Assembly (NCBI GenBank): GCA_015183035.1
Contig: JACZZP010000011.1
Location: 62,001-126,000 of the forward strand
DNA: 64,000 nt
Direction: 5' to 3'
DNA from: Meloidogyne chitwoodi
Lineage: Eukaryota; Nematoda; Chromadorea; Rhabditida; Meloidogynidae
The number at the start of each line of letters is the position of its first letter. Positions within the stretch are counted from its first letter, which is position 1. The position numbers and the translations under genes were made by a program. Positions 33,036 through 64,000 of this stretch are shown here, piece by piece. Under the pieces are notes generated by a model. The model worked only from the letters and a program-made list of their open reading frames with translations. It was not told where the DNA came from and ran no database searches.

Positions 33036-34476
33036 TCAATAACCTCCACTTTTTTGTTGCTGATTAACACTAATATCTCCAGTGTCCAATTCTGCTATTG
33101 AAGGTGCAATTATGTTTTGAATTCCACAAGATGATGGACAATGACCTCCGGATTCTCCTGCATCCCCTGGGGCTCCAATAGGTCCCTGAGGTCCTGGCTC
33201 TCCTCTTTTTCCTTTTTTTTTTGAAAATTAGAAATAATATTTATGTCAAAATTTATACCTGGTGGTCCAGGAGGTCCTGGCTAAAAGAATAAAATTAATA
33301 AAAATTGTTCAAAGAATAACAAACCTCTCCAACAGGTCCTGGGGGTCCAGAATTTTGTGACGGCGTACCATTCGGTCCAGGCGGTCCTTTCGGCCCACGT
33401 GGGCCTGGTGGACCGGGAGGGCCTTTAATTCCTGTTCCTCCAATGCTATCATCTCCAGGAGGACCTTTTAGGGATTTTATATTTAAGAAGGAAAAATATT
33501 CATGAAAAAACCCTTCATTCCTGGTTCCCCTGTTTCTCCTCTCGGACCTGCCAAACCAGCATCTCCAACACGTCCAGGCTTTCCTGGTCTTCCAGGAATG
33601 CCTAAAAATATAAAAAATATTCAAAAATTATTTTAAAGGTACCTGCATGGCCAGGCTCTCCAGGTGGTCCAGGCCGTCCTGCTTCGCCTTGAGGACCTCG
33701 ATTGCCTGGAGGTCCAGCTGGACAAATAACGCTAATAAAAGAAAAATGTCACAAATATTGATTTCCAACCCAGAGGACCACAACCATTTGGCTTAGTGAT
33801 CTTCTGGTTTTACTTTTAATAAAAATAAACCAAGGAAAACTAGGTTCCGGTTCAAGAGGTACATCCAACCCATCGAGTCCTACAAATTAAAATATAAAAT
33901 AATTCTAATAATCATAAACCTGGCTTTCCAGGCCTTCCAACTTGTCCATCAATTCCATCCTCTCCATTCACCCCAGGCGGTCCGGGAGGTCCAGGAGGGC
34001 ATTGTAATTGAACACAACTTGTACATTGCTCCATTCCATCAGCTCCATAATCACCTGATTGGCGACGAACACGATTTTCTGGATCTTCAAATAACAATTC
34101 TTTCCAAATATTTCTCGAAGCGAACTGAAAATTGGACAGAATGTCATTTTTAAACAATTGACAAAATGTGATTTTTTAGAGAACGGACAAAACGTCACTT
34201 TTTAGAAATTGGACAAATTATAATTACCAGGAAGTGGACAAAATGTCACTATATCGAAAAAAATGTTTTAACCTTAAAAGCATCCATTCGACGTTCAATG
34301 TCTGTAGACGCCGTTTCAAGTCGATAATGAAGCAAAGGAAGCAATAAAGCCATTATACCAAGACAAAAAAGACTAATACCTACAGAGCCATAAGCAATTT
34401 TAATTAAAGGTTGTATTTTAATAGAAGAATTAAATTGTTTTTTATCATTTTCGTTGTTAATTTGCTGAGAAAACAT
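33036..34476 (-). CDS. Nematode cuticular collagen
   Basis: About eight exons, ~310 residues, start ATG 34474-34476, stop 33036-33038. The N-terminal region (IKIAYGSVGISLFCLGIMAL, then HYRLETASTDIERRMDAFK) is the Col_cuticle_N membrane-anchor type. A processing site RVRR lies at about residue 87, followed by cysteines (QCTSCVQLQC) and the first Gly-X-Y block PPGPPGPPGVNGEDGIDG. A second block starts after PCVICPAGPPGNRG. The main triple-helical region ends in GDAGESGGHCPSSCG, then a 40-residue tail ending QQQKSGGY. It differs from the first collagen in the cysteine pattern and tail, so they are not recent duplicates. Exon junctions near 33,840 were chosen to keep the Gly-X-Y phase. Confidence 0.92.
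34126..34256. repeat. Degenerate tandem GGACAAAATGTCAC repeats in collagen intron
   Basis: Five degraded copies of a ~30-nt unit: ATTGGACAGAATGTCA, ATTGACAAAATGTGA, GGACAAAACGTCAC, ATTGGACAAATT and GTGGACAAAATGTCAC. Its reverse complement, GACATTTTGTCC, matches the GGACATTTTG family seen near 60.1 and 63.7 kb. Confidence 0.6.
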
Positions 34477-34784: not shown

Positions 34785-35550
34785 TCATGAATGTTCCCCT
34801 TCTTTATTCTTCTGAATTGCCAAACGCTTTGCCCAGTGACACTCCAAGTCTTAAAAAATATTTTTTAATATTAAATATTTTTATAATTATACCATATGGT
34901 TGATCTTCAACAATATAATATTTTGCTCCAACAAGTGGTTTATCACATCCGGTACATGTGAAGCCTTAAATTAAAAAATTTAGTTTTTAAAAATATTTTT
35001 AAAAAATTACATGAAGCATGCCAATATTTATTCAATGCAAATATTACATAACCGTGCATCCTTGAACCGCAAGACTCTTTGGCACATTTTGGACGAACAA
35101 TTCCAATGAAGCATTTGATACAATAGGGAACAGTATTGTGAATCTAAAAAATTATAAAAAATGTTTAAAAGAAAATTAAATGTTTAACCACCAACAGGTT
35201 TCGAACCTGTGACACTGCTATTCATAATCAGGCACTCTACCACTAAGCTAAAGAAGTTATGCTTATCCTTCTCTTTTAATTTATCTTAAACCTTTAGCTA
35301 GCCACTACAGAAAAATTGTAACCTGGTAGTCTCCTTCAAGCATTACGTCACAATCAGTGATGCCACAGCGAAAATGTTGTTTGTGCCTAAATTTAACTAT
35401 TATTTTTTTTAAATTATCAAAAATTTACCAAACTTTGCCAATAGCAACGGTAACATTCTGATCTACAATCACCTGATTACAACTCTCACAATATTGGCTA
35501 AGTTCTTTTTTCTCCTCCTGTTCATTCGGATCGACTTCCTCTTGTGCCAT
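34785..35550 (-). CDS. Two-LIM-domain protein
   Basis: Five exons, about 160 residues, start ATG 35548-35550, stop 34785-34787. After an acidic N-terminus (MAQEEVDPNEQEEKKELSQ) comes the first LIM domain: CESC, then WHKQHFRCGITDC, PYCIKC. The second LIM domain follows immediately: KCAKESCG, YWHASCFTCTGC, and the closing LECHWAKRL. LIM domains bind two zinc ions each and mediate protein contacts, often at muscle attachments or in the cytoskeleton. Some spacings are longer than the textbook C-x2-C (C-x4-C). No other domain is present, so it is a small adaptor-type protein; the nearest family within LIM proteins was not settled. Its intron carries a tRNA-like relic. Confidence 0.88.
35187..35257 (-). 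pseudogene. tRNA-like relic in LIM-gene intron
   Basis: Minus-strand reading has GCTTAGTGGTAGAGTG and a perfect T arm ACAGG-TTCGAAA-CCTGT, then TGGTGGT. The 5' acceptor does not pair. Same orientation as the host gene. Confidence 0.5.
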
Positions 35551-47153: not shown

Positions 47154-50100
47154 GGTTACTTCATTCTCTAAATTTAACTTAAGTTTACTCTTAAATATTT
47201 ATTAAATGCTAAATTTCTCTTATTAATTAATTAAAAATAAATTAATTTTTAAAATCAAACAATTAATTTTAAATATATTTTTTAAGGAATTTTTTATCGT
47301 CATATATATTTAATACTCTTAAATAAACCCCCACATTTTTATTTATTTAAAAGGACAAAAAAATGTATTTTTTTTTTAAATTTATTTATATTTTTTCTAT
47401 TTTTGTTTCCTTTTTTAATAATTTAAAAATTGTTTTTAAATTATTTTAAAAATTTAAATAAATATTATTTGTTTTATTTTTCTTTAAAAAATATTTTTAA
47501 AATTTAGAATTAATATAAAATATTATTTAAATAAATTAAATATATTTATTTATTTATACCAGGAATTAGCCAAAATTAAAACAAAAAAAAAATTTTTAAA
47601 TGTCTCAAAATTAGTTAAAAAATTATTTTATATTTCTAAAAATAGTTAAAATATATAGACAATTTCCTATGACATTTTAATTTTTTTAAATTCTTTTTTT
47701 AATTTAAAAAAATCTAAAAGGCCTTTTTTCGAAACAAATTTAATTATTAAAAAAAAATTAAAATTTTGCGCAATTTCCTATTTCCGTTTAAAAAAAAAAG
47801 AATTAAAACATAAATAAAATTCCAATTAGATAAATTTTTAAAAAATTATAAAAATGCAAATCTTTTAAATTAATTGGGGATAAATGCAAATAAAGAGAAA
47901 AAAAAAATAAAAAATTTTAATTTATATGCTTCAATAATTTTTTAAAAATTATTTTAATTAATTTAAAAAAAAAAATATTTCTAGCTCTTAATTTATTTTT
48001 TTTAATGCCAAAAAAGGGTAATTTTATTAATTTATTTAATAAAATTAATTTAATATTTTACTTAAAAACTATTAAAATACCCCCACCTTTATTTCCTCTT
48101 TTTTTGTCATTTTCTCCACTTTAATATTTTTTTTAATTTTTTAAAATAATTTCCTTTTATAGAAAAGTACTAAAATTGTTTTAATAATTTATGGAAATTA
48201 ATTTAAAATTTTAAAAAAAATTTAATTTTTGCAAAAAAATAATAATTTTAAAAGTCCTTACAAGTCCTTATATTTATTAAAAATAAGTAAAATAAAAACA
48301 TTATTTTTTAAAGCAAAAATCAAACTTTTATTCCTTCTTTCCCCTAACAAATGCAAAAGAGACATTCAGCGTTGCCTAACTTACCAGATTTGACATAAAC
48401 AATTAATTCTATTTGCTACACAATACAGTAATAAAAATAAATAAACTTGAATATATTTAATTAATTAAATTAGTTCAAATGTTCAAAACACCCCAATTAA
48501 ATATAAAAATAGCTTTTAATATTAATTAAAAAAATAATAAAAAATTAAAATTAATTAATTTATAAAAATCAAACTTTTTTTAATTAAATTAATTTTATTT
48601 TATTTAAAAAACGTCAACTTTTATTAATTAGTCTGAAGGTGTTTATTAATATTTTTGTGTTTTGCTATCCTTAAATCTTTAAATTCTTTTAATCCCTTCA
48701 ATTAAAAATTTTTTTTTAATTTTTACTAAATAAAATTTACAAAGTTTATAATAAATATTAAAGCATTTATTTTATTTTATTTTTTAAATTTATATTAAAT
48801 AATAAAAATGATATCAAAAATTAATTAATTGTACTTTATTTATTTATTTATTATTTACGGAAATGAAAAAAATAAATAATTAAAAATATTAAATAAAATA
48901 ATAGACATTTATTTTTTTATTTAAAATTTAAAAAATAACAATTATTTATTAATTTTTATTTTTATTTAATTCGTGGATATCTCCCAAACATACTACATAT
49001 TTGTTTTTCTTTTAATTAAAATTAATTCTTTTAATTAAAAAAAATTAAAATAAACCTTTTTTTAATTTAAATTAAAAAAAGGGCACAATTTTCTTTAATT
49101 ATTTAAATTATTTTTTAATTATTTAATTTTAAAATAAATTTAAAAATAAATAATAATGACATCAAAACAAACAAACATTTCTTTCTTTTTTAAAAATTAT
49201 TTAAAAAAATTAACTTAATAAGTGTAGGTGTGGGTATTTAATATCCTCCCCCTCTTCTCTTCTTCTTTTTATTTTTAAAATATTTAACAAATCTTCTTTT
49301 CTAATTTTTTTTAATAAATAAAAGTACTTTTTCTTCTTTATTTTTAATCATTTTATAAAAGGTTAAAATTATTAAATTAAATAAAAAAATAATTTATTTG
49401 GATTAATTAAATTCACTCCCACATATCTCTCATTTTTTAAATTTATTTAAAATAATTTATTTTACCTTTTTTAAAAAATTATTTATTTATTATTATTTAA
49501 ATATATTAATCTGTAGAAGAATATATTTTATTTATTAAAAAAAAATAAAAGAATTTAGTCTCCGCCCTAGGATATTATTTAATTTAAAAATTAAAAAATA
49601 TTTATTTTCTCTCTATTTTTTACCTTATATTATTTTAATAAAACCACGCCTACCTATTAATTTTGTATAAAACATTTATTTTTTTAATTAAAATAATAAT
49701 ATATTTATAACAATTACTACACTATAAAAGGAGTAAAATTTTTAAATATTTGCCAGTTTTGTGCAAAGAAAATTTTTTAAATAATTTAAAATTTAAATAA
49801 ATTTGTTTTTGTTTTTGTTTTAATTTTTTTAAAATTTTCTCTCTAATAGTAGACCTTTTTTTGGGGAACTTTAATTATTAAATTAATTTGAATATTTATT
49901 TATTTTCTATTATTATTTAAAAATGATATTATAATATATTTAAAATAATCCAAAAAAACAAAAAAGTTCCACACTAATCAACTTTATTATTATTATTATT
50001 ATTTTTTGCCTTACGCCAACACTCAATAAGCGCAACTTTATTTTAATACAATTTTTTGCCTCTTTTTCTTCTCTTAAAATGTTTTTTAGGATTAAATTAA

Positions 50101-50630
50101 CCAAAAAAGTGTCATTCATGTATTTTAGTTATTTTCCTTTACAAAAATTTAAAAAAAAAGAAAAACAAATTTATTAAAATTTGGGGGCATTTTCCCAGGA
50201 CAGATTTTGAGTGAATTAAAGTGGTTGATCTCCTTCATTTTGACCACTACAAAAATTAAATAAACTCCAAAAAAAGTGTCTCTATAAAATAAGAATTAAA
50301 ATATTTTATTTTATTCATTATTTTATTTATTTTTTATTTTTAAACAAACAATTCAAAGTGCTTACCCTAATAGACCTTAGTTCATTTAAAACCTTATAAC
50401 AAATGAACCAATAAATATTTTTAAACAAATTAAATTTTATTAAATAGAGAATTAAATAAGCTTTAAAAATATTTTTAGTGTATAATTTTAATTAATTTTG
50501 TAAAAAAGTTGTAGGCGAAAAACCTTCAAAAAAGAGTATTTTTCACTTAAATAAATTAATAAAAAATTTGTTTTTCAGATTTTATTACCAAAAAATATTT
50601 TTTTTAATTCTTCAAAAACTGCTTTTTAAA

Positions 50631-53600
50631 ATGCCACCAATATCTTTTAATAATATTAACAACAATAATAATATTTTTAATTTAATAAACGATCACCACC
50701 ACTCCCTTAGCCAATTAAAAATTGAAAATAAAAAAGAAAAAACAACAACAAAAAAAATTATTTATCAACCAAAAGGTCATCCAAAACAAGCAATTATTGA
50801 TGGAGAAATATGGCCACCAGTTTTTGAAATTGAAGCTGTTAGGTAAGAATTAAAAAAAATTCAAGGTGTTTGCGCCGAAACGTCCGCGCGCTGAACTGGG
50901 CATTTTTAAAATTTTTTTAAATTTCTATTTTTGTATTTTAAAAGTAAACATTTTTAAATAAAAATAAAAACAAAAACAAATTTATTAAAAAAAAAGTGTT
51001 GTTTTTTAATAAATAAGTAGAGGGAAAGGCACAGTCCCTCACCAACCACCCCCACATTTATTTTTTTTTTAATAAATAAATAAATATTTATTTTAATAAA
51101 AATATCTTTTTTGCATGACACGAACACTTTTAATTTTATTATTTTTTATTTAGCTTTTTAATCCTCTTCTCTTTTAAAATTTGTTTTTATTTATTAAAAA
51201 TTTGTTATTTTTTAAGAGAAAATAGAGATGGTACAAAATATAAAAATATTTTTTTATATTTTGTGCCGTGCCATCCCTCATTTATAAGCACAAAAATAAC
51301 TTCAAGAATGAACTAATTATAGAAATAAAAAAATAAAAATAAAAAAATGACTAATTTAGCAAATAAAATACAAAAATAGCATAAAAAACTTGTTGATTTC
51401 TAAAATTTATAACTCAACATCAAATAACCCAATTTTAATTTTTTTGATTTCATTTAATAGAGAAAAGTTTGAGCTACAAAATATATTAAATTCAAATTTT
51501 CTTTTAATTTAATAAAAAAGTTGTGGCCAAAAAGCTTGCAAAAAACCCTGTATTTTACCAAAAATATTACTTTTTTTGATCTTAAATTTTTTATAATAAT
51601 TTTAAATTTTATTTTTTATTTTCTTTATTTAGCTAATTTTCTGCTCTATCCAATGATACCAAAAATAATTTGAAAGATTCATTCCATTCTTTAGTTATAA
51701 GCCTCGGACTCAAGTGAACCAATTATAAATTATTACACAATACATATTTTTTTATTGCCTATTTTAGACACATTAATTAAAATAATAGTTTTTTCCAAAT
51801 GCAAAATTTATATTAATAAAAATGGGGAAAGCCTTGGCAACTTTTTTTATTAATAAAGGGAGAAAAAAGGAAAGGGATGTTTGGGTGCAGAAAAAGCAAC
51901 AATGAATTTTTTTTAATTTTTTTTTCGGAGATAAAAGAAAAGAGAGAGAGGATTAGTATTATAATAATTATATAATATATTTTCCTTCAGCCATTTTTGT
52001 TAAAAAATAAAAAAGTTAGAGCCAAGTAAAGCATAAAAGAGGTATTTAATAATACTAAAAATTCTATAAATGGAAATATGACGGTTGTCGCGCAATTGTC
52101 TAATATTCATTACAAAAGTAAAAAAATGTTTAAAAAATGTATAAAAAGTTGAGATAATTATATGAAAATTTTTTGCAAATTTTTGCAAATATATATTTGG
52201 GGGTGTGGACGCTTTCAAAGCAATAAATTCTCTTTAAATATTTAATTTTTTACTTTAAATTTAATTTTAAGATCTGCAAAGACAATGAAACCTCTTTCTA
52301 GTGATGTTTTTGTTTGTACTTATCCAAAATGTGGAACTACTTGGATTCAACATATTTGTTCTCAATTACTTTTTTGTTCTGAATACGGGCCTCAACAAGG
52401 AAAAGGTTTATTTAAGTCTATTAATTAAAGAAATTAACTGTGAACATTGGTGGTCGGGTGGTTAGCGACTCTGACTTGAGTTGTTGCCTGTAAAAGAGGG
52501 ATGAAGGTTCGATACCTACTGAAGCCCAAATATTCCTTAAAGCTAATAAACTGTGTTTTTCAAAGTTTTTTGATCGAAAATAAAAAAAAAATATTTTTAA
52601 ATTTTTTAAATGCCAAAATTTGTAAAAAAACACAAATTTAACTCAAAAAAATATTAAAAAAACTTTTTAAATTTTTTAAAGTTACAGAACTTTGTATAAC
52701 CTCTCCAATGATTGAAAGAGTTGGAGCAGAATATTGTAACAAATTAAATCATCCTCGACTTTTAAAAACACATTTTTCTTACAACAATTGCCCAAAAACT
52801 GTTTCAACAACAAAATATATTTTTGCTTGTAGAAATCCAAAAGATTGTTTAGTATCATATTATCATCATAATAAAAATTTTAAAATTTATAATTGGGAGA
52901 ATGGCAATTTTGATCAATTTTTTAAACTTTTTATTGAAGGAAAATTGGCCTTTGGAGATTATTTTGAACATTTAAAAAGTTGGCTTCCCCAAATAAACAA
53001 CAAAAATAATTTTCTTTTTTTAAAATACGAAGATATGTTAAAAAATTTAAAAGAAACAATAATTTCAATTGCAACATTTTTAAATGGAAATGCTGCAAAA
53101 TTAATTAAAAATGATCAAGTTTTGGAAAAGATAATTAAAGAAAGTCAATTAGAGTCTATGCAAAAAAATCAAACACGTTGGTTTCCGGAAAATGTTTTGT
53201 AAGTTTTTTTTTAATTTTTAAAAAATAGGCTTTTTTTAAAGTTGGAAAATTAATTTTTTTTTAATTTTATTAATTAAAAAAGAATTTATTTTTCAATTTT
53301 TAGACATAACGAATCGTTTATTCGTAAAGGCTGTGCCCGTGACTGGAAGAATTATTTAAGCAAAGAACAGAGTGATTTAATTGATAAAGTAAATTTTAAT
53401 TAATTAAATTAATTTATTTATTTTAGTTAAAATAAATTAATTAAATTTTAATTAATTTATTTTAGTTGTTCAAACAAAAAATGGCAGGAACAGAAGCAGA
53501 AAATTGGTGGAAAGAGGAAATGAGATGGAATGAAGAAGAGGAAGATGATGAAAAAGAAAAAGTTGAAGAAAAAGTTGAAGAGAAAGTAGAATTTAGAGAA

Positions 53601-53821
53601 AAAGAAAAAATTAAAGAGGAAAAGGAACAGGATTTGATAGAAGAAGAGGAACTAAAAAAATATAATAATTTTACAAATCAAATAATAAATAATAATGATT
53701 CTGGAATGGAGAGTGATGATGATTTTTGTTGTTTTGAAAATTTTGAAAAAAATAATAATATAAGAAGAGATTCAATATCTTCTGAATGTTATTCAACTAC
53801 AAGTTCTTCTTCATCTTTTTA
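50631..53821 (+). CDS. Cytosolic sulfotransferase (SULT family)
   Basis: Five exons, ~395 residues. The 5'-phosphosulfate-binding loop is [13 protein letters not shown] (Cys replaces Ser of PKSGTTW), the catalytic His is in LLKTHFSY, the 3'-phosphate motif is [16 protein letters not shown], and the second PAPS motif is [13 protein letters not shown]. It transfers sulfate from PAPS to small molecules; nematodes typically have few such cytosolic enzymes, for example ssu-1 in C. elegans. A ~90-residue Glu/Lys-rich tail ending in a poly-Ser stretch is unusual for the family. The first intron is about 1.4 kb, much longer than others here, and the next contains a tRNA-like relic. The start ATG at 50631 gives an Asn-rich N-terminal extension. 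Confidence 0.93.
51223..51277. repeat. Hairpin in sulfotransferase first intron
   Basis: GATGGTACAAAATATAAAAA pairs with TTTTTATATTTTGT, then GCCATC. About 55 nt overall. Confidence 0.45.
52443..52530 (+). pseudogene. tRNA-like relic in sulfotransferase intron
   Basis: TTGGTGGTCGGGTGGTTAGC (A box), a long variable region, and B box GGTTCGATACC. Looks like a degraded Leu/Ser-type tRNA, in the host gene's direction. Confidence 0.45.
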
Positions 53822-54188
53822 ATTAATTTTTTTATTTTTAATTTTATTATCTATTTTTCTAGTCTTTTTAATTATCCCTACTTTTGTAAATTATTTTTTT
53901 TTTCCTAATTTTATTTAATAATTTAATATATTTTTTAATAATAATAATAAAATAATTTATTTTGTATCAATTTAAAAAATAAATAAAGGTAGTAACATTT
54001 CGTTAAATAAACTTTAAAAAAATAAACTTGAATTTAATATAAAAAATAAACTTGAATTTAATATAAAAAATAAACTTAAACAGAAACAATTAATTTATTT
54101 GTTTCAAGTTTATTTTTATTAATGAATAGTTTTAAAATTAACAAATAATTATAAAAAATAAACTTGAAACAAAATAATTAAATAAACT
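53822..54188. repeat. Spacer with AAATAAACTTGAA repeats
   Basis: Downstream of the sulfotransferase; contains about five copies of AAATAAACTTGAA in both orientations, including TTTCAAGTTTATTTTT at about 54105. The repeat family continues to about 56.1 kb. Confidence 0.65.
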
Positions 54189-54849
54189 TTAAATTAAAGG
54201 TAATAATGAATTTGTTTTATTTTTAATATCTGTTCTTTTTTTAATAAAAATAATAAATATTAAATTAAAAACAATTAAAAAAGATCCTCCTACAAATAAA
54301 AATGATTTTAAATTTTTATTCCTAAAATAATTAGTTGTTAAAGTAGAATCAAAATAAACATCTGGATTAAATAAATATTGGCAGTGAGATCCGTGGAAAT
54401 TAGGTGCACAACTAAAATAAAAAATAAACTTGAAACAAATAAATAAAAAATAAACTTGAAACAAATAAATAAAAAATAAACTTGAAACAAAAAATAAACT
54501 ATACTTATATTTCAAGTTTATAGTATATCCATAAAATCAACATAATTAGATCAACTTAAATATATTTAGAAAAAAGTGTCCCTCTTTTGGATTTTTTAAT
54601 AAATTAAATTAAAAACCTGCAATAAAAAATAGGTTTGCTAATTTTTTCATAAATAATAGATAAACATTTTCCTTCATTGAAACAATAATATTTTTTCAAA
54701 TAAATCGGGCATTCTGCATTTTTAACAAAATAATTTATTTTATTATTATTTAAATTTTGTTCTTCTTTTTTATTTTCTTCTTTTTGAATTTTTGCATTTA
54801 TTTTAATTAAATAAATTAATAAAATAATTAAAATTAATTTTTTAGACAT
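54189..54849 (-). CDS. EGF-like membrane-anchored small protein, paralogue A
   Basis: Two exons (start ATG 54847-54849; exon 2 about 54189-54413), 151 residues. A signal peptide (LILIILLIYLIKINA) and a charged linker precede a single EGF-type domain with cysteines at about residues 47, 56, 62, 77, 79 and 88 (C-x8-C-x5-C-x14-C-x-C-x8-C). The motif runs ECPIYLKKYYCFNEGKC, then FYCSCAPNFHGSHCQY, close to the order in secreted EGF ligands (CP..., YC...GKC, C-x-C, G-x2-CQY). A shared LFNPDVYF follows, then a single membrane helix (LFVGGSFLIVFNLIFIIF) and a short basic tail. This is the layout of a membrane-anchored EGF-family ligand. Its intron is packed with AAATAAACTTGAAACAAA repeats. No family match is claimed beyond EGF-like. 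Confidence 0.75.
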
Positions 54850-55262
54850 TTTTGAAAGTAAAAATGATTTATTTGGGATAAATTATTTTTCATTTTTATA
54901 TTTTATTTTTCCCAAATTTAATTTTAATAAAACAAACAAAATTAGAACAATTAAAAAATTAAAATTTTTTTTTTTAATTTTAATGAGTAATTTAAATGAT
55001 TCATACTAAATAATTTTTATTAAAAAGCTCTTTGTCTTTTATTTATAACCTTTTTTTAGATTTTGTCTGTTTGTACAGAAGTTGAAAAAATTAAAAAAAA
55101 AACAAATTATTAAATAAAAATTAAATTTTTCTTTCATTATATCCGATGTTATTTATTTTATCATTATTTTAAACTTGAAACATAAAATAAATAAACTTGA
55201 AGCAAAAAATAAAAATAATATTTTAATTTATTTGTTTCAAGTTTATTTTTTTCTTCAATGAT
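54850..55262. other. Spacer between EGF-like paralogues A and B
   Basis: AT-rich, with TTAAACTTGAAACATAAA at about 55168 and the inverse TTTGTTTCAAGTTTATTT at about 55230. Promoter region of paralogue A. No exon seen. Confidence 0.45.
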
Positions 55263-55710
55263 TTATTTAAAACCATAGACATCTGGATTAAAAAGGTATT
55301 TGCAATTATGTCCATGAAAGTCTTTGGCACATCTTTAAATAATTTTATAATTTTTATTTTAATTAAATTAATCTAAAATTTAAATAAAATATTAAATAAT
55401 AATTTTTTCCTTCTATTTTAATTAATTAAAAAAATAAAATAATTTAAAAACATTACTTGCAATGATCAATAATATATCCAGGAAGAGGTTCAAAACAAAT
55501 ACAATCACTATTATTATAACAAATTGCTCTACATACTCGATTTTTAGATTTTTTACAATAACCAATCTCTATTGTTTCATTATTTTGAATTATTTTAGTA
55601 GCAATTTCTTTTTCAGCATAAAATTTAGAAGGTTTGCCTCCTTCCACAGAAAAACAGAAGCAAAAATATGAAAATAAAAAGAAAAATATTAAAAAATATT
55701 TTTTAATCAT
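55263..55710 (-). CDS. EGF-like secreted small protein, paralogue B
   Basis: Two exons (exon 1 about 55456-55710, exon 2 about 55263-55332), 107 residues. The signal peptide (MIKKYFLIFFFLFSYFCF) is nearly identical to that of paralogue C. The cysteine pattern is C-x7-C-x3-C-x5-C-x-C-x11-C-x-C-x8-C: YCKKSKNRVCRAIC, SDCIC, HCKCAKDFHGHNC. The last three cysteines follow the EGF C-x-C-x8-C half, then KYLFNPDVYGFK ends the protein. Unlike paralogue A it has two extra cysteines and no membrane helix, so it should be secreted. It is head to head with paralogue C. No function is known to me. Confidence 0.75.
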
Positions 55711-56204
55711 TTTTTTTATTTTTTTTTGATTAAATAAATTTTTTTATATATATAATAATTTTTTTTAATTTTAGTTTATTTTTTTAATATTCTAAAGAAT
55801 CAAATAAAAGCACCTTTTGAATTTTTGAAATTATAATTTAATCTTGCATGGAGAAAATAAACTGAATAAATAAGATTGAAAGAAATGGTAAAATAAACTT
55901 GAAGCAAAAATTGAAATAAATAAACTTGAAAATAATCTTTAAAAAAATTCAAGTTTATTTAATAATATTCTGATTTCAAGTTTATTTATTTATAAATTTG
56001 AAGCAAAAGATAAAAATATTAATTTATTTGTTTCAAGTTTATTTAGTTTGCTTCATTCAAGTTTATTTATTTTATACTTATTTAAGCTAAATTATTCAAA
56101 AGGTGCTTTTATATTATGCTTCTTTAGAATATTAAAAGTTAAAATAAAATTATTATATATATAAAAAATTTAAAAAATATTTATTTAATCCAAAAATTAA
56201 AAAA
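55711..56204. repeat. Palindromic region between EGF-like paralogues B and C
   Basis: Mirror-symmetric about position 55,958: AATATTCTAAAGAA at 55786 matches TTCTTTAGAATATT at 56120, AAAGCACCTTTTGAAT at 55807 matches ATTCAAAAGGTGCTTT at 56094, and TATATATATAATAATT boxes lie on both sides just before the starts. It serves as a bidirectional promoter and contains several AAATAAACTTGAA copies. Confidence 0.8.
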
Positions 56205-56647
56205 ATGATAAAAAAATATTTTTTAATATTTTACCTTTTATTTTCTTATTTTTGTTTCAGTTTTTCAGAATTAAATTCAGCAGAAATGTTAAAAAAAGAA
56301 ATAGAAGATAGCACCGATATTAGTTATAAAATAATTGATGAAAATAATAAAACATCATTGGATAGTTATTGTAAAAAATTTAAAAATCGAATATGTAGAG
56401 GACCTTGCTATCATGACAGTACTTGTATTTGTTATCAATATAGAGGGGAAATACGTGATTATTGCAAGTAAATATTTTTTTAAAATTATTTTTTTAAATT
56501 TAATTTAAAATTAATTTTATTATAAATTTAAAAAAATTAAAAATTATTTAAAGCTGCACTACAGGCTTTTCTAGATTTGATTGCGGAACTCTTTTTAATC
56601 CAGACGTTTATTTTGAACCAAATCCTTTTTTGAACGGACACCATTAA
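56205..56647 (+). CDS. EGF-like secreted small protein, paralogue C
   Basis: Two exons (56205-56469 and about 56553-56647), 118 residues. The signal peptide is MIKKYFLIFYLLFSYFCF. Cysteine spacing C-x7-C-x3-C-x5-C-x-C-x10-C-x-C-x8-C: YCKKFKNRICRGPC, STCIC, YCNCTTGFSRFDC. The end is TLFNPDVYFEPNPFLNGHH, sharing LFNPDVYF with paralogue A. Same cysteine plan as B but the mature chains differ at most other positions (DSTDISYKII against EIATKIIQNN), so change has been concentrated outside the cysteines, while signal peptides are almost unchanged. Secreted, no anchor. Confidence 0.75.
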
Positions 56648-59600
56648 AATATAAAAAATATTATATATTTAAATTACTCTAATTTTAAAAAATAAAGAAT
56701 AATTTAATTAAAAATAAATAAATAATTTTATCTTTTATTACACATATTTTTATACAAAAAAATATAAAAATAAAATAATATTTGTTGTAATTTTTTTTAA
56801 TTAAACAGAACAAAACTTAAGAATTTTTATAAAAAAATATTTATTTTTTTTTTAATTTTAAAGTTTATATTTTCCACGATTTAAACAAAACACTTAACAC
56901 AAATAAAACATTAAATAAATAAAATTAAAAAAATATATTGTTGTGATTTAAATCTTTTTTTTTAGAAGCATTTAATTGATTTTAACACAATTTTATAATA
57001 TTTTTTTTTAATTTTTAATTTTGATCAAAACTTTAATTTATTCAAAAAAAATATTTAAAAAAATAAATATTTGTTTTTTTAAATATAATATTACGTGTCA
57101 TATTTACATTAACGTTATTATAACGGTTTTCTCTTTTTTAACTAATATTTACATAAAATTCAGAAATCTAATATTTTAAAGGGAACGACCGGTTTTGTAC
57201 ATTTATATTATAATGAAGAAAAAAAGAGAGAGAAAATTGGCAGCGGGAAAAAATTCCATTTTCAGGAGTACAAAATTAAACAACAAAAATTCATTGAAGC
57301 AAAATAAAAAAAGAAGAAAAAAAAATAAGCAAATAATACCCCCTAAACAAAAATATCCAGAAGATCGGGTTTCTTATATATAAATAAACATTTAAAAATA
57401 AAATACAATTATTTTTATATTTGTAGTTTATATTTTATATAAAACTTTATATGTATTAAAATACATAAATTATAACGTCAATCTTCTGTTTTTAAATAAA
57501 CTTTATTATAATTCTGAAATGTATTTTCTGTTTTTAAAATTTAATAATTCTGATTTTATTATTATTTGTGTTTTTGTGTTTTTGATTCTGATTTATTTAT
57601 TTTTAATAATTCTGATTTATTTATTTTTAATTAATTCTGTTTTTATTTTTTGTGTTTTTGTGTTTTAATTTGTTATTTTATTTTGTTTTATAAAATGTAC
57701 TATATGTTCTTTTTTAGCTTCATTATTTTAGATTTAAAAGAAAAATATTTATAAAGTATTTTAATTGTTGTAAAAAATGTATCATTTATTTTTTATTAAA
57801 AAATAAAAAAAGATTTTATTTTCTGATAAAAATAAAAATAATATTTTATCCATTTTCTAATCTATTAAAAAGTAAAAATATGACCTAGAGAAATTTTAGG
57901 GAAATATAACCTTTTGTAACTATTTTTAATGTGCGCATCTAATAAGTATACTTATATTACAAAAAGCTTTTTGTTATTTTAAAGGCCCGAAAAATATATT
58001 CTCTTTTTTTACATTAGTGATTTTCGTCCTGTTTTTCATCCTTTTCTTCTTTTTTTATTCATTTAGCTTAATCTGATTTTTACTTGTTTTTAGCAAAATA
58101 TTTGGTCAAAAGTTTGGGTAAAATAAATATTCTATTTATTTAAATTTACAAAAGAAGTTAAATTTAAATTTTTATATTAAAATAACCTTCTTTGCTTTAT
58201 TTTCATAACTAAAATACAAAATTTTTATTAATAAAACACAATTTTTGTAAAAAATACAAAATATCAGAATTTTTGTATGTTCAATAAAAAGATGTATGTA
58301 TTTTGTAAAACTTAAGTTTTACAAAATTATCTGTTAATATTCCTCTTCAATTACAAAATACCCCTATTATTACTTAATTCTCGATATCTTGCGCAATCAA
58401 TTAAAAAAGTGCTTTACATTTTTACGCTTGCCTAGCTATTTATTTTATTTATTCATTTTTTTATTTTCCCACAGGCCCCGTAATAAATCAATCGGCAAGC
58501 CTTTACCTTTATATTATTGTAAATATAAAATAAATTATTTAAATTAAATTAAAAAAGTTGAAGTAATTTTTAACTTAATTTTGTATACCTAAACAATTTT
58601 TGTATTATCTATTGTAATTTAATTATTTAAACTTGTTTTAAAATACATATTTAAATTGAATATACAACAATTCTGATTTTTGTGTTTTCCTTTTTAGATT
58701 GTAAAACTTGTTCACAATATTTTTTCTTAATCTATACATAAGTGTAATTTTCCTTATTTCCTCATTTCTCTCTTCATTTTGCATAATCTTTCTTTGGTTT
58801 TATTTTTATTACAAATTTACCATTAATTGAAAAGATGATTCACAAAAAATTGTGTTGCGAAATAAAAAAAACCATTTTTGGACTAAAATTTATTTTCTAA
58901 AAATTTTTGTCCCCAAACCAAACACTTTCTTCTCTAAATTTATACATAGTATAACATTTCCGCTTCTTCTCCATTTCTTTTTTTTCAAATTTTTTTCCTC
59001 TAATATTTTTCCAACAAAAATTTGTTTTCGTTCATTTAGGTAAAAGGCAGATGCTTCTTCTACTACTTAATTTACTAACTGCGTTTTCCTAGCTAAATAC
59101 TGACTTTTTTGTTTGCTTTTTGAGATGGGGGTTGTCGATCATTTACTTTTACTACCTATATATTATTTTTTTATCCTTTTTCTACCACACCTTTATCTTT
59201 GCTTCTATTTTGTATCCATTTATTTAATGAACTTTTTTTTATAAAAGAACACTTTTTCCTTCTTTTTTTTAGAGAAAAATATTTAAATCTTCTTAAATTT
59301 AAATTAAATGTGTGTATTTTATTTTTTAAACAAAAATTGATTTTGTTTTGTTTCAAAAATAACAAAACACAAGGTAATATAAAGTTGTAAAAAAAGTTTT
59401 TCTCGCGCAACTCTTTTTCCTCTTCTTTTATTTTTCTCTCTCTTATAATAACAAAAACACACATTTGTAAAAAATATTCCGCCTGTTTTTACAAAAATAC
59501 AAGTTTGTGTGTGTTTTAACCGGAAATGAAGAAATACTTGTTTTTATTTGTTTAAGTACTTTCCGGAAAGAATATTAGGTAACTTTGTGGTTTTTGTAGG

Positions 59601-59764
59601 TTTTTGCCTCTTCACTTTTCTTTTGTATTTTTACTATTGTATTTATTATTTACCCCACGCATTTTGTGTTTTCTTTATTTTTTAAGCAACAATCTTTATT
59701 ATATTTTCTTTTGTAAAAAATAATTAAACACAATTTTTACAATAGAATCAATTATTTATTTATA
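56648..59764. other. Long AT-rich gene-free block
   Basis: About 3.1 kb with no exon I can support. The open frame at 57195-57383 is Lys/Arg-rich and could be a terminal exon, but nothing joins it. A short repeat (AATTCTGATTTATTTATTTT) occurs at 57.53-57.66 kb. The right half is T-rich. Confidence 0.4.
57530..57680. repeat. Short tandem repeat TTCTGATTTATTTATTTTTAA
   Basis: Two to three copies of AATTCTGATTTATTTATTTT between copies of TGTGTTTTTGTGTTTT (57.57 and 57.65 kb). Simple AT-rich repetition. Confidence 0.45.
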
Positions 59765-62325
59765 ATGGAAACAAAACAAAAATTAATCAAAATAACAACA
59801 ACAAACATTTATTTTATTTTTTTCTTTATTTTAATAAATTTAATATATTTTTCTAATTCTTCAACATTTTTTATTTCTTCATTTAATGAACAATATGACT
59901 GTGTTGATTTAATTTGTAATAATAAAATAAATAATGATTTTATAAATTTTAATGATGATGATGATTTACAACAACATAAAATGTTAATTGATATTAATAC
60001 TGGGAAAATATTAGATAAATGTAGTAAATGTTCTGATTGTACTAATAGTGGATACAGGTAATTTTGTAATAAATGGACATTTTGAAATTGGACATTTTGA
60101 AATTTTAACATTTTGAAATTTTAACATTTTGAAATTTTAACATTTAATAATAAATATTAAGTAATTGTATGCAATCTCGTCAATTTGATGGACAAAAACA
60201 CCAATTTATAACAATTGAAGGAACTTGTGAATGTTCACATTCTGGACCTTTTATATCAAATAATGGAATAATTAATAAAAACATTTCAAGCATTGAAGGA
60301 AATATTGAAAATACTAAAAAATGTAAAGTTTTGGATGTTTCTAATGGTGGTAGTAGAAGTCGAATAATTAATGAACCTAAATTGGATGAAAATGAAGCTT
60401 TCTTTAGGCTTTGTTATTCTTCAGGTAAATATATTATATTTTGGACATTTTGGACTAGTTGACAATTTGACATTTTTATTTATTTTTATGTAGTTCGTCT
60501 GTTCTTTAAATATCGGGTCAGACCTAGAAACATATAATACATATCATTCAATTCCTCTCATCAAGATGAGTACGAATATATTAGTTTTATTTCTGAGAAA
60601 AATGTTTGGGCCGAGATACAAGTCCCCGAAAATCGAAAAACCATAGGGGGGAGTAAGCTCTGCTAAGTGATTACCGCGGCTGCTCTTAAATTATTTTTTA
60701 AATTAAAAAAATATTTTTTATTTCTAGCACTTCGTAAATTGCCTCTTCTTCAAGCAAATAATGAACAAGTAGATGATCAACCAATACCAACAGTTTTGGT
60801 CACTGTAGAACAATTTTGGTTAGATAAATATTGGCAAACATTGAATCCAAAAGATTTGAATTTATATTATGTTTTCCCAGTTGCTAAAAAAGAACATTGT
60901 GAAAAAGGTATAACTTCAATACCTGATGCTCAAGACTTAATTTGGATTAATTCTGGAAAGGTATTATTTTATTTTTTGGGGTTTTAGACCTTTTACCCTT
61001 TTGTACTTTACTGAAAATTTTTGTTTTTCTTACAATTTTGTAGTTAATTTTTATTTTATTTGAAAAAAGATCAAAATTTGAAGCAAAAAATCTGAGACTC
61101 AAGTGTACCTTTTTATGTATTTTACCCTTTAATTTTATAATATTAAAGGTACCGACTTCTGGAATGATTTGGCTTTGTATAACTCGATTAAAATTACAAA
61201 TGGGTGATGAACAAGAAGATGGAGGAGTAGAAGGAGATGATAACTATGATGTAAGGAAGAAAAAATATTAAAAAATTAAATTTTTTTAATATTTAAGTAT
61301 CAATCAAATATGGATCCAAAATTGCCGCAAGAAATTCAATTTGATAGAAATGTTTTTGCGGGGGCAGAAAGAGCACGTTTTTATTATGAAGTTGTTGTTG
61401 TTAGGGACAATCAACTCAAAGCAGGAGCTGGTTTATATTTTTGAAATATATTTTTAAATAAATTTAAATATTTAATTTAGGTAAACCAAAATTTGAACAT
61501 CGAGAAACCTTAGTTAGGTCAGACATATTGGATTTTGAACTTCACCCAGAGATTTATGGAACTGGAATGGAAGAAAGAAATGATTCTATAATTAATAAAA
61601 GTGAAAATATTGAAGAACAAAATAAAAAAATAATTAATGAAAAAGGTTTTTTATTTTTTAAATTAAATTTAATTTTTTAAAGAAAAAGGAAAATATGATA
61701 TTCGTTTGCCTATTGTAAGACCCATTTTGAGGACAAAAGGAGGAAAAGAAAAAAGTGTAGAAAATTCCAGAGTTAATACAATGGTATAACTATTTTAGTT
61801 TTTTTAAAAAAAAATTATTTTAATTAAAAATTTTAGAGAGAAATTTCTCAAAAACCAATTTTTACTAGAGAAGAGAATATTGAGGAGATAGAGGCAACAA
61901 CTTTAATGCCTATTCCCTTACCAAAAATTGAAAAAGATTCAAAACAAAAACATCAATTTTCACAAAAACACACATCATCATTTACTCCGCAGACCCAAAT
62001 GTCTTCAACATTAAATATTTTTAATACAGACAGTAAATTAACAAATGAGTCAGACAGTAAAACAACACAAAAAGAAGAAGAGAGTAATAAAAAAGTAAAA
62101 GAAAAGGATGAGGATTGGCTACTTTTCCGGAATGTTTTAATTGTTTTTATTGTTTTATTATTTGTTATTGTTGTTCTCGGATTTTGCTACAAATGTTCAT
62201 TTTTGTGTTTTTCCGGAAGGCGAAAGAGCAGAGAAAACACAAATGGGCAACAAATAAATGGTAATGTAAAGAAGAGAGTACAAAACGGAAAAGAATATAA
62301 AGAGGCAAATAATAATTATACATAA
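59765..62325 (+). CDS. Unrecognised type I membrane protein
   Basis: About eight exons, ~560 residues. A signal anchor (TTNIYFIFFFILINLIYFSN) precedes a lumenal part with cysteine pairs (YDCVDLIC, KCSKCSDC, SNCMQSR, GTCEC), a hydrophilic middle (LRKLPLLQANNEQ, YWQTLNPKDLNLYYVFPVAK, YQSNMDPKLPQEIQFDRNVF, RARFYYEVVVVRDNQLKAG) and a Lys/Glu/Ser-rich spacer. A single membrane helix (LLFRNVLIVFIVLLFVIVVL) then leads to a cysteine-bearing juxtamembrane (FCYKCSFLCF) and a ~40-residue basic tail. I do not recognise the family. It looks like a nematode receptor-type or matrix-anchored protein. Confidence 0.75.
60073..60150. repeat. Tandem GGACATTTTGAAATT repeats in intron
   Basis: Five copies of ACATTTTGAAATT with alternating GG or TTTA linkers. 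GACATTTTGAAATT also occurs at about 63678 and 63702, and a related group at 60441. Confidence 0.6.
60490..60672. other. GC-richer intron block
   Basis: Within the third intron of the 59.8 kb gene. A stretch with TATCGGGTCAGACC, TTTGGGCCGAGATACAAGTC and AGGGGGGAGTAAGCTC is less AT-rich than its surroundings and could be a transposon remnant. No ORF. Confidence 0.35.
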
Positions 62326-63114
62326 ATTTTCTGTCTTTTCCGGAAAAAGAAAATACAACGACAAATAAAGAGAGACTGCACATTGGTAATAAAAGAACGA
62401 GAGGTGAAACATTACTATAAGGTAGTAAATTAATTTTTTATAAAATGGTCAGACACTTTTATTTTTTTAAGTCAATAGAGTATTTTATAATTTTTAAAAA
62501 ATATCTGACCATATTTTAATGTTTTATTAAGCTCTATTAGTGCAATGATTTTATAAATATTATTTTTACCACAATTTCTCCACCCTCTTTCCAATTTTCT
62601 CAAGGTTTTTTTTTTTAATTAATTAATTTTCTCTTAATTTTTTTAAAATTTCTTCTCTAATTACGCAACCCATCAGAACCTATTTTTTCATTTTTTATAA
62701 AAAACGCATTTTTATCATTTATAATTTAATATTTTACAAGCGAATATTTTTTATTTTTTTTTAAACTTAGACTCTAATATCCGAAAAATATTTGTTTAAT
62801 TAAAAAAATTCGCTTTTATTGTATTATTTTCTTAATTTTCACCTTACCAAGAATTGGGCATATCGAAAATCGATTTTGCTAACTTGGAGCTTTAAAATTT
62901 AATTTAATATTTTAATTAGGAATTTGACTTTATAAAATGGAGAATTAAAAAAAATTTTTTTAGACTCAAGTGTCAAAAATAAATTTTTCTCCATTTATTT
63001 AAATATCTCTATTTTTCCTTTTTTCTGTATTTCGGGTCCCCCTTCTCTCTTGTTTTTATTATTTTAATTTTATTTAATTATTAGCATTTTAGAAATAAAT
63101 ATTTTTTAACTAAT
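62326..63114. other. Convergent intergenic spacer
   Basis: 3' UTRs of the 59.8 kb gene (+) and the FRAG1-like gene (-). AGACTCAAGTGTCAAAAA at 62962 belongs to the dispersed GAGACTCAAGTGTACC family. Nothing else. Confidence 0.4.
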
Positions 63115-63878
63115 TTACTTTAAATATATTTCTATTTCACTTTTATCCATTTCCCATAAAAGAAGAAAATACCAAAAAGAATTAAATCCAACTAAAGCAT
63201 ATTCTGTTAATGAAAATAAAGTATAATCTAAAAAATAATTAAAAAGGTACATTAGAGTCTTGTCAATATTTTCTATGTTAACAAACAGAGGAGAGTGGAA
63301 TAAGTGAGAGGTGGAATAAATGAGAGAAGCTAATAATTTATTTTTAAATCTGAGACTCTAATGTACCCTTATTTTTAATTTAATTAAAAAACTTAAATAA
63401 AACATTGCAAGTATAAAGATAGCCAAAATAAGTAAATCCTGTAGATATTGATAAAGGATAAATAATTAAATAGGCAAAAATACATTTGAGTCGGAAAATA
63501 ATATCCAACTATAAAAAATAAATTTAAAATAATATTTTTTTATTTTAAATTTACCTTTCTATAAAGTGAACGTATCCCTGAATGATAAAATAAAATTGTA
63601 TTAAAACAAATATTTAAATTAAAAGAAATTAGCCAGAGGGCATAACCAATTGCATGAAAAACTAAAAAATTATTTTTTGACATTTTGAAATTTTTTGCCT
63701 AATTGACATTTTGAAATAATTATTTAATTTAATTTTTTACCAAAATGTCCTTCAATATCTATAATAGAAACAACAACAAGTCCCACAATTTCAGCAAAAA
63801 TAAAAAACATGTGTGCTTTCAACATTGGAAAATACCAATTTCTTTGTTTAAATTCTGATTCTCCAAGTTGAAAATTTG
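63115..63878 (-). CDS. FRAG1/PGAP2-like multi-pass membrane protein, 5' end outside the window
   Basis: Four exons can be joined on the minus strand, ending at TAA 63115-63117. They give AEIVGLVVVSIIDIEGH, then FHAIGYALWLISFNLNICF, IFRLKCIFAYLIIYPLSIS and DYTLFSLTEYALVGFNSFW. The series of hydrophobic segments, YTLFSLTEY close to the end, and LWEMD fit the FRAG1/DRAM/Sfk1 family; human PGAP2 has VYTIFAILEY there. PGAP2 takes part in GPI-anchor lipid remodelling in the Golgi. One junction (after YTC near 63402) does not keep the reading frame with a standard GT-AG intron ending at 63227. An alternative acceptor upstream (about 63254) would restore it. Confidence 0.7.
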
Positions 63879-64000
63879 CTTTGTATGCCAAAAATTAATT
63901 TTTTTTAAATTAAATTTTAAAAAAGTTCATTTGAGTCTTAGAATTAAATTTTTTAATTAAATTAAAAAAGGTCATTAGAGTCTTAAAATAATTTTAATAT

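Follow-up and report, generated by a model that had tools for sequence, protein, structure and literature searches.

Candidate LIN-3/Spitz-type epidermal growth factor ligand genes in a three-gene cluster of Meloidogyne chitwoodi

A stretch of 2.5 kb in the genome of the nematode Meloidogyne chitwoodi contains three short genes, here named A, B and C, whose predicted products share a signal peptide, a cysteine pattern of the epidermal growth factor (EGF) type and the motif LFNPDVY. What kind of proteins these genes encode, and whether such proteins belong to a class that is already known, is the question that this locus raises. The genes are found in a stretch of 64,000 nucleotides (hereafter the window) that corresponds to positions 62001-126000 of contig C3 (GenBank JACZZP010000011.1), and the genome searched in this study consisted of 47,477,280 bases in 30 contigs. 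The original prediction, made from the letters of the window, proposed a recently expanded family of secreted ligands or effectors that belonged to no described family. We consider it probable that the cluster is part of a LIN-3/Spitz-like family of EGF growth-factor genes, in which A and its relatives on contigs C9 and C26 would be membrane pro-ligands for the receptor LET-23, and B and C would be soluble derivatives that arose via an inverted duplication.

Three two-exon genes and their relatives on other contigs

A script-based reconstruction gave two-exon models for genes A, B and C, with coordinates that agreed with those of the original prediction. Gene A is on the minus strand. Its exon 1 (54617..54849) encodes the signal peptide, a linker and EGF cysteines 1-4, and its exon 2 (54189..54411) encodes EGF cysteines 5-6, the tail YLFNPDVYF, a transmembrane helix and a short cytoplasmic end before the stop codon. 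The intron of A (54412..54616), which lies between EGF cysteines 4 and 5, contains four cores of the locus repeat described below. Gene B, also on the minus strand, encodes the signal peptide, a linker and mature-domain cysteines 1-6 in exon 1 (55457..55710) and the last two cysteines, KYLFNPDVYGFK and the stop in exon 2 (55263..55332). Gene C is arranged in the same way on the plus strand, with its exon 1 at 56205..56467 and its exon 2, which encodes the last two cysteines, LFNPDVYFEPNPFLNGHH and the stop, at 56554..56647. Neither of these second exons encodes a membrane helix. The introns of A, B and C (205, 124 and 86 nt) all have GT-AG borders and are in phase 2, splitting a codon between both cysteines of CxC, and the local DNA contains 16% guanine plus cytosine (GC).

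The predicted proteins are 151 (A), 107 (B) and 118 (C) amino acids long. A contains six cysteines with a spacing of 8-5-14-1-8 and one hydrophobic helix C-terminal to the EGF module (Kyte-Doolittle 19-residue mean of 2.69 from residue 116). Mature B and mature C contain eight cysteines each, spaced 7-3-5-1-11-1-8 and 7-3-5-1-10-1-8, respectively, and hydropathy gave no second hydrophobic helix in either. It should be noted that B and C have two and one extra cysteines inside their signal peptides, respectively, which the original prediction had left uncounted, and that the signal peptides of all three proteins were assigned by eye and by hydropathy, the mean of C staying below 1.6. What had been described for the cluster is confirmed: three two-exon genes with a common intron site, a six-cysteine A with a membrane helix, eight-cysteine soluble B and C, and signal peptides of B and C that are nearly identical (18 of 21 residues) and precede divergent mature chains (44% identity) are all present in the sequence.

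The view of a small EGF-like family of secreted or membrane proteins also holds, but the family is not confined to the cluster. With A exon 2 as the query, a protein-level search of the genome found two further members, L008 (C9:820551, E 2.9e-7) and L010 (C26:1129451, E 0.0016), the latter a divergent fifth member that was recovered from the protein search. Each encodes an EGF module of six cysteines that is followed by a membrane helix, and in each a phase-2 intron separates cysteine 4 from cysteine 5; their third cysteine spacing is slightly longer (15 and 17), and their ends read YLFNPDVYGF in L008 and YLFNLNIY in L010. L010 also has, by eye, an additional intron between EGF cysteines 1 and 2. 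The exons of L008 and L010 were joined and their splice sites read by eye, and both models are incomplete upstream. A degenerate DNA pattern for FNPDVY (TTYAAYCCNGAYGTNTAY) has exactly four sites in the 47.5-Mb genome, three in the cluster and one in an EGF-type gene on another contig, all of them within the family of A, B, C, L008 and L010, while the reversed-pattern control has none. Genome searches with exon 2 of L008 and of L010 brought up no gene beyond A, B and these two, and the EGF exon of L008 matched nothing but itself; the family thus counted has at least five members. Other candidates were rejected. A CQYLFN match at window position 35019 is on the strand opposite to another gene, LIM-like by eye; the pattern TGYNNNTAYYTNTTYAAY lacked specificity, with 253 matches vs 207 for its control; and the matches of exon-2 queries past the stop of B fall in the local repeat and are not a relic of a gene.

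The relationship among the five members was also measured with cysteine-fixed shuffles. For the EGF region, the scores of nine of the ten pairs were reached by 0 of 1000 shuffles, and that of L010 and C by 3 of 1000. When the exon-1 halves were compared alone, the score of B and C was reached by 0 of 1000 shuffles and those of A, L008 and L010 among themselves by 1 to 8 of 1000; between these two groups, the likeness of the exon-1 halves was not significant (67 to 237 of 1000). Because of this last result, exon 2, the intron and the spacing C-Y-(N/H)-x3-C are what links A with B and C.

Resemblance to EGF receptor ligands

In the comparison of A with solved structures, Spitz ranked first (E 6.1e-5 and 1.1e-4), followed by heregulin, EGF and neuregulin. 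Of the 29 entries found at E ≤10, ErbB ligands accounted for nine of the ten best (E ≤0.031), the tenth being Notch-1. The first match of L008 was neuregulin-1 (E 0.0067). A profile built from A, L008 and L010 matched Spitz with E 9.6e-6, and 16 of its 18 entries at E ≤0.1 were ErbB ligands, LIN-3 being absent at that threshold; with a profile of all five members LIN-3 was found with E 3.2e-4, ranked fourth after Spitz (two entries) and EDIL3 (3.1e-4). Ligand-like EGF modules have cysteine spacings in the range of CX7-8CX4-5CX10-14CXCX8C. The six-cysteine module of A is of this kind, L008 and L010 also have six cysteines, and B and C, with eight, depart from it. A splice site between EGF cysteines 4 and 5 together with a nearby membrane region has been proposed as a criterion for ErbB ligands (Stein and Staros, PMC1618406). 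This splice site is found in the genomic sequence of all five members (by eye in L008 and L010), and hydropathy places a membrane helix near the EGF module in A, L008 and L010, but not in B and C. By sequence, intron site and membrane layout, A, L008 and L010 look like LIN-3/Spitz-type ligands of EGFR (ErbB), so that the statement that no described family applies is wrong for A, and of the two earlier suggestions, ligands or effectors, ligands is the better half.

Several observations weigh against this assignment. B alone and C alone had no EGF match in Pfam or among solved structures. The EGF model PF00008 scored 16.8 bits for A and 19.4 for L010, below its cut-off of 21.5 bits, and did not list L008, B or C; L008 was matched in Pfam only by related EGF models, below their cut-offs. 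Pfam searches with single exons of A, B and C likewise yielded just chance-level or sub-cut-off matches. A LIN-3 segment used as the query had no match in this genome, a null result that carries little weight. Mucins, meprins and IMPG2 share the same intron and membrane layout, and their role as ligands is unproven (PMC1618406), which makes intron and layout strong but insufficient evidence. Finally, the Arg before cysteine 6 is absent from all five members: A and L008 have His at this position, B and L010 have Asn, and C has Asp.

The soluble members were also compared individually with EGF references. B is weakly EGF-like, as its scores against four references were reached by 2 to 5 of 1000 cysteine-fixed shuffles, and C is similar to LIN-3 (13 of 1000) and EDIL3 (0 of 1000) but not to Spitz (200 of 1000) or neuregulin (640 of 1000). 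A match of DUF4969 to C (E 1.7e-5, below cut-off), which covered residues 3-55, i.e., the signal peptide and linker, was judged compositional. Searches for homologous proteins gave 81 candidates for A and one for B, none at E ≤1, in a database that is presumably poor in nematodes and says little on novelty. No description of this family was found in a search of open-access main texts, which does not prove that none exists.

In verified ErbB ligands, an Arg precedes cysteine 6, with the exception of the tomoregulins, which have His (PMC1618406). Arg41 of EGF forms a salt bridge with Asp355 of EGFR, and replacement of Arg41 reduces binding to <1% (PMC3554757). LIN-3 and Spitz both have the Arg. 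Because this defining residue is absent, A, L008 and L010 are not classed as verified ErbB ligands. The receptor gene itself is present: an EGFR/LET-23 gene is located on contig C1 at about 76-82 kb, minus strand, where GF_recep_IV scored 36.6 bits, over its cut-off, in a match that crosses one TAA, presumably intronic. Four of ten open reading frames (ORFs) of this region had Pfam matches, namely a receptor L domain (E 1e-8), a furin-like domain (1.3e-4, below cut-off) and tyrosine kinase (1.3e-41 and 2.4e-11), and six had none. Domain III of the worm receptor, spliced by eye, matched human EGFR with E 4.3e-26; no LET-23 row was among the best 60 of its 115 matches.

Aligned to human EGFR, the worm receptor has 14 extra residues between human positions 353 and 356, the stretch that holds Asp355, in an insertion that crosses a predicted intron. 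HMMER aligns a worm Asp opposite Asp355, with an arbitrary placement of the gap within the insertion, and this Asp weakens the case for a rewritten receptor code. The loss of the Arg and the receptor insertion appear to fit together, although one genome cannot show co-evolution. It is a tentative idea, on balance doubtful, that this lineage rewrote its EGF receptor code, in which case several ligands derived from a single ancestor would have dropped the otherwise nearly universal Arg while sharing an LFN-(PDV)-Y tail, LET-23 would have gained the 14-residue insertion at the stretch partnering the Arg, and two stapled, secreted eight-cysteine forms would act as competitors for or modulators of the receptor, or else have a role outside the worm. 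As signalling from LIN-3 to LET-23 through one ligand is textbook animal development and Arg41 is a known hot spot of EGF, several Arg-less ligands with an altered receptor stretch would, if this idea is true, be a natural experiment on how a lock and its key change. Judged from the sequences, the family is a real and recognisable one, a variant of the EGFR-ligand type of which B and C are apparently derived soluble forms.

Origin of B and C and possible roles of the family

B and C form a head-to-head inverted duplication at 55275..56611. Three pairs of arms were aligned, with identities of 91% (55649-55723/56192-56266), 79% (55489-55586/56341-56438) and 73% (55275-55355/56531-56611), and the 91% arm spans the signal peptide and the 13 bases before it. 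Exon 1 of B as the query found C with 55% identity (E 8.3e-19). Nonsynonymous (dN) and synonymous (dS) divergence between B and C, estimated by the Nei-Gojobori method, was 0.06 and 0.60 for the signal peptide (21 codons), 0.91 and 0.33 for the loosely aligned linker (30 codons), 0.35 and 0.57 for the cysteine domain (55 codons) and 0.51 and 0.47 for the whole mature chain (85 codons). These values show, as far as such small counts allow, that the mature chain of B and C changes fast; positive selection is not proven by them. With dS at about 0.5, the description of the family as recently expanded is supported in part, for the B/C inverted duplication only.

The spacing C-x-(N/H)-x3-C that is shared by the family ties mature cysteines 3 and 4 of B and C to EGF cysteines 2 and 3, and in LIN-3 (PDB 9yos) EGF cysteine 2 is preceded, at a distance of four residues, by another cysteine, which is the spacing of mature cysteine 2 in B and C. 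If mature cysteine 2 corresponds to EGF cysteine 1, the additions would be mature cysteines 1 and 5; a disulfide between these two would act as a staple between the N-terminus and the loop that follows EGF cysteine 3. Other registers fit the alignment too.

We propose that A, L008 and L010 are pro-ligands in which a signal peptide is followed by a six-cysteine EGF module and a membrane helix. The EGF module would be shed from the membrane and act on the worm's own LET-23. The inverted duplication may have given rise to B and C, which would have kept the exon of the last cysteine loop and the LFNPDVY tail and are free of a membrane anchor; their two additional cysteines probably form one extra disulfide. 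B and C would then be secreted without shedding and could modulate the same receptor positively or negatively. The tail after cysteine 6 likely has a contact role, because it is kept in the soluble B and C, where membrane cleavage is not needed. The most likely function would be EGF-pathway signalling within the worm, with A, L008 and L010 as pro-ligands and B and C as secreted variants. C. elegans has one EGF ligand and one receptor (PMC4914847, PMC4465127), Drosophila has four EGF ligands and a planarian nine, two of them secreted (PMC4914847). Three putative ligand-type genes, or five if B and C are counted, vs one in C. elegans would be unusual; the excerpts of PMC5934874 and PMC3890508 contain nothing on ligand copy number.

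A more specific possibility, to which we give limited credence, is that A is an agonist while B and C are secreted negative modulators similar to Argos of flies. As stapled EGF variants with eight cysteines, they would occupy LET-23 or capture its ligand and leave the receptor inactive. Argos acts by ligand binding (PMC1618406), and B and C are soluble, have eight cysteines and an altered cysteine 1-4 loop, lack the Arg before cysteine 6 and keep the tail after it. The fast mature chain behind a conserved signal peptide is also consistent with such a role, but the counts are small, the linker alignment is uncertain and dN remains below dS in the cysteine domain. The likeness to Argos is furthermore one of layout, and a role as weak agonists, like Vein, would fit just as well.

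It is less likely that B and C are host-directed plant effectors from the pharyngeal glands, with A and the unlinked members serving as endogenous signals. M. chitwoodi is a plant parasite, and B and C are small and cysteine-rich paired duplicates with a signal peptide and no helix, in which the signal peptide is conserved and the chain divergent. However, the Mel-DOG motif TGCMCTT was not found in window positions 49,086-64,000 and hence not within 1 kb of the starts of A, B and C. This absence is weak evidence, given that the window contains 10 matches vs 11.7 expected by chance; of 46 known dorsal-gland effector loci, 27 have the motif and 19 do not (PMC8158474). The term EGF does not appear in the main text of the paper on the gland transcriptome of M. 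chitwoodi (PMC12614787), and no published link between EGF-like proteins and Meloidogyne effectors was found in the open-access literature, where an excerpt of PMC2640417 proved irrelevant to EGF-like effectors. If the proposed ligand identity is true, it would set development apart from any use that a crop parasite may make of secreted EGF variants towards its host.

Also unlikely, to a similar degree, is that the A-type genes encode EGF-module membrane proteins for adhesion or a coat, which inherited the intron and the layout and lost signalling. The absence of the Arg from all five members is in line with this, as is the example of mucins, meprins and IMPG2 that layout alone proves no ligand (PMC1618406). 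Against it, the best structural relatives of A are ErbB ligands, and the receptor stretch facing the missing Arg is 14 residues longer, as if the pair had changed together, with an Asp still opposite Asp355; the LIN-3 segment query also revealed no other LIN-3 candidate in the genome, which shows little. Chance or misread frames, which short exons in DNA of 16% GC might suggest, are highly improbable in view of the four FNPDVY sites in 47.5 Mb, where the reversed control has none, the three phase-2 GT-AG introns at one site and the matches that the protein-level search gave on other contigs (E 2.9e-7 and 0.0016). Signalling by LIN-3/Spitz-type ligands is the reading that we prefer.

The cluster is also the site of an iterated short repeat with the core ATAAACTTGAA, which extends over 54022..56066 on both strands; of its 17 exact copies in the window, 16 are located here. 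The repeat has a period of about 22-27 bp and fills the spacers of the cluster and the intron of A. A shuffle of the whole window gave a mean of 0.35 exact copies vs the 17 observed. The core AAACTTGAA has 17 of its 21 window copies in the cluster, vs 10 copies across 37 other loci that overlap in part and cover 129 kb. ATAAACTTGAA was not found at the L008 and L010 loci. The repeat might consist of regulatory sites, be left over from recombination or form a local satellite.

Just upstream of the cluster, at 52246-53822, the window contains a sulfotransferase gene, with Sulfotransfer_1 matches of E 4.1e-42 (52642-53199) and 5.2e-5 (53278-53403); by eye, the gene ends in a long Glu/Lys-rich and Ser-rich tail. 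An ORF at 59717-60061, which possibly encodes another secreted protein, combines a hydrophobic stretch with a cysteine-rich part (CVDLICN...CSKCSDC), and a collagen-like exon with GPPGPPG runs is found at 33912-34175 on the minus strand. No RNA gene was called in the window by Rfam or by ARAGORN with the bacterial code, including a stretch at 35190-35262 that is tRNA-like by eye with a GGTTTCGAACC arm.

Comparison with known EGF-type proteins

Spitz of Drosophila is a membrane pro-ligand. Its six-cysteine EGF module (PDB 3ltf, 3c9a) aligns over residues 46-97 of A (E 6.1e-5). Unlike A, Spitz has an Arg preceding cysteine 6, and its aligned part does not contain LFNPDVY. Drosophila spitz lacks the splice site between cysteines 4 and 5 that is found in the spitz of other invertebrates (PMC1618406). 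LIN-3 of C. elegans shares with B and C the spacing C-x3-C-x5-C, which corresponds to their mature cysteines 2, 3 and 4. It differs in having the Arg before cysteine 6, whereas the worm studied here has five related genes, none with the Arg.

Neuregulin-1/heregulin is the second-best structural relative of A and the best of L008. Neuregulins 1 and 2 have an immunoglobulin domain (PMC4914847), and none was seen here, the models of L008 and L010 being incomplete upstream. The tomoregulins (TMEFF1/2), compared by description, have His before cysteine 6, as do A and L008, and they share the splice site between cysteines 4 and 5 and the nearby membrane region, but they contain follistatin domains (PMC1618406). 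Among the secreted insect proteins, Vein has an immunoglobulin domain (PMC4914847) that B and C do not have. In layout, however, Vein and Argos resemble B and C, since both are soluble modulators of the EGF pathway, which is the role proposed here for the two secreted members of the M. chitwoodi family.

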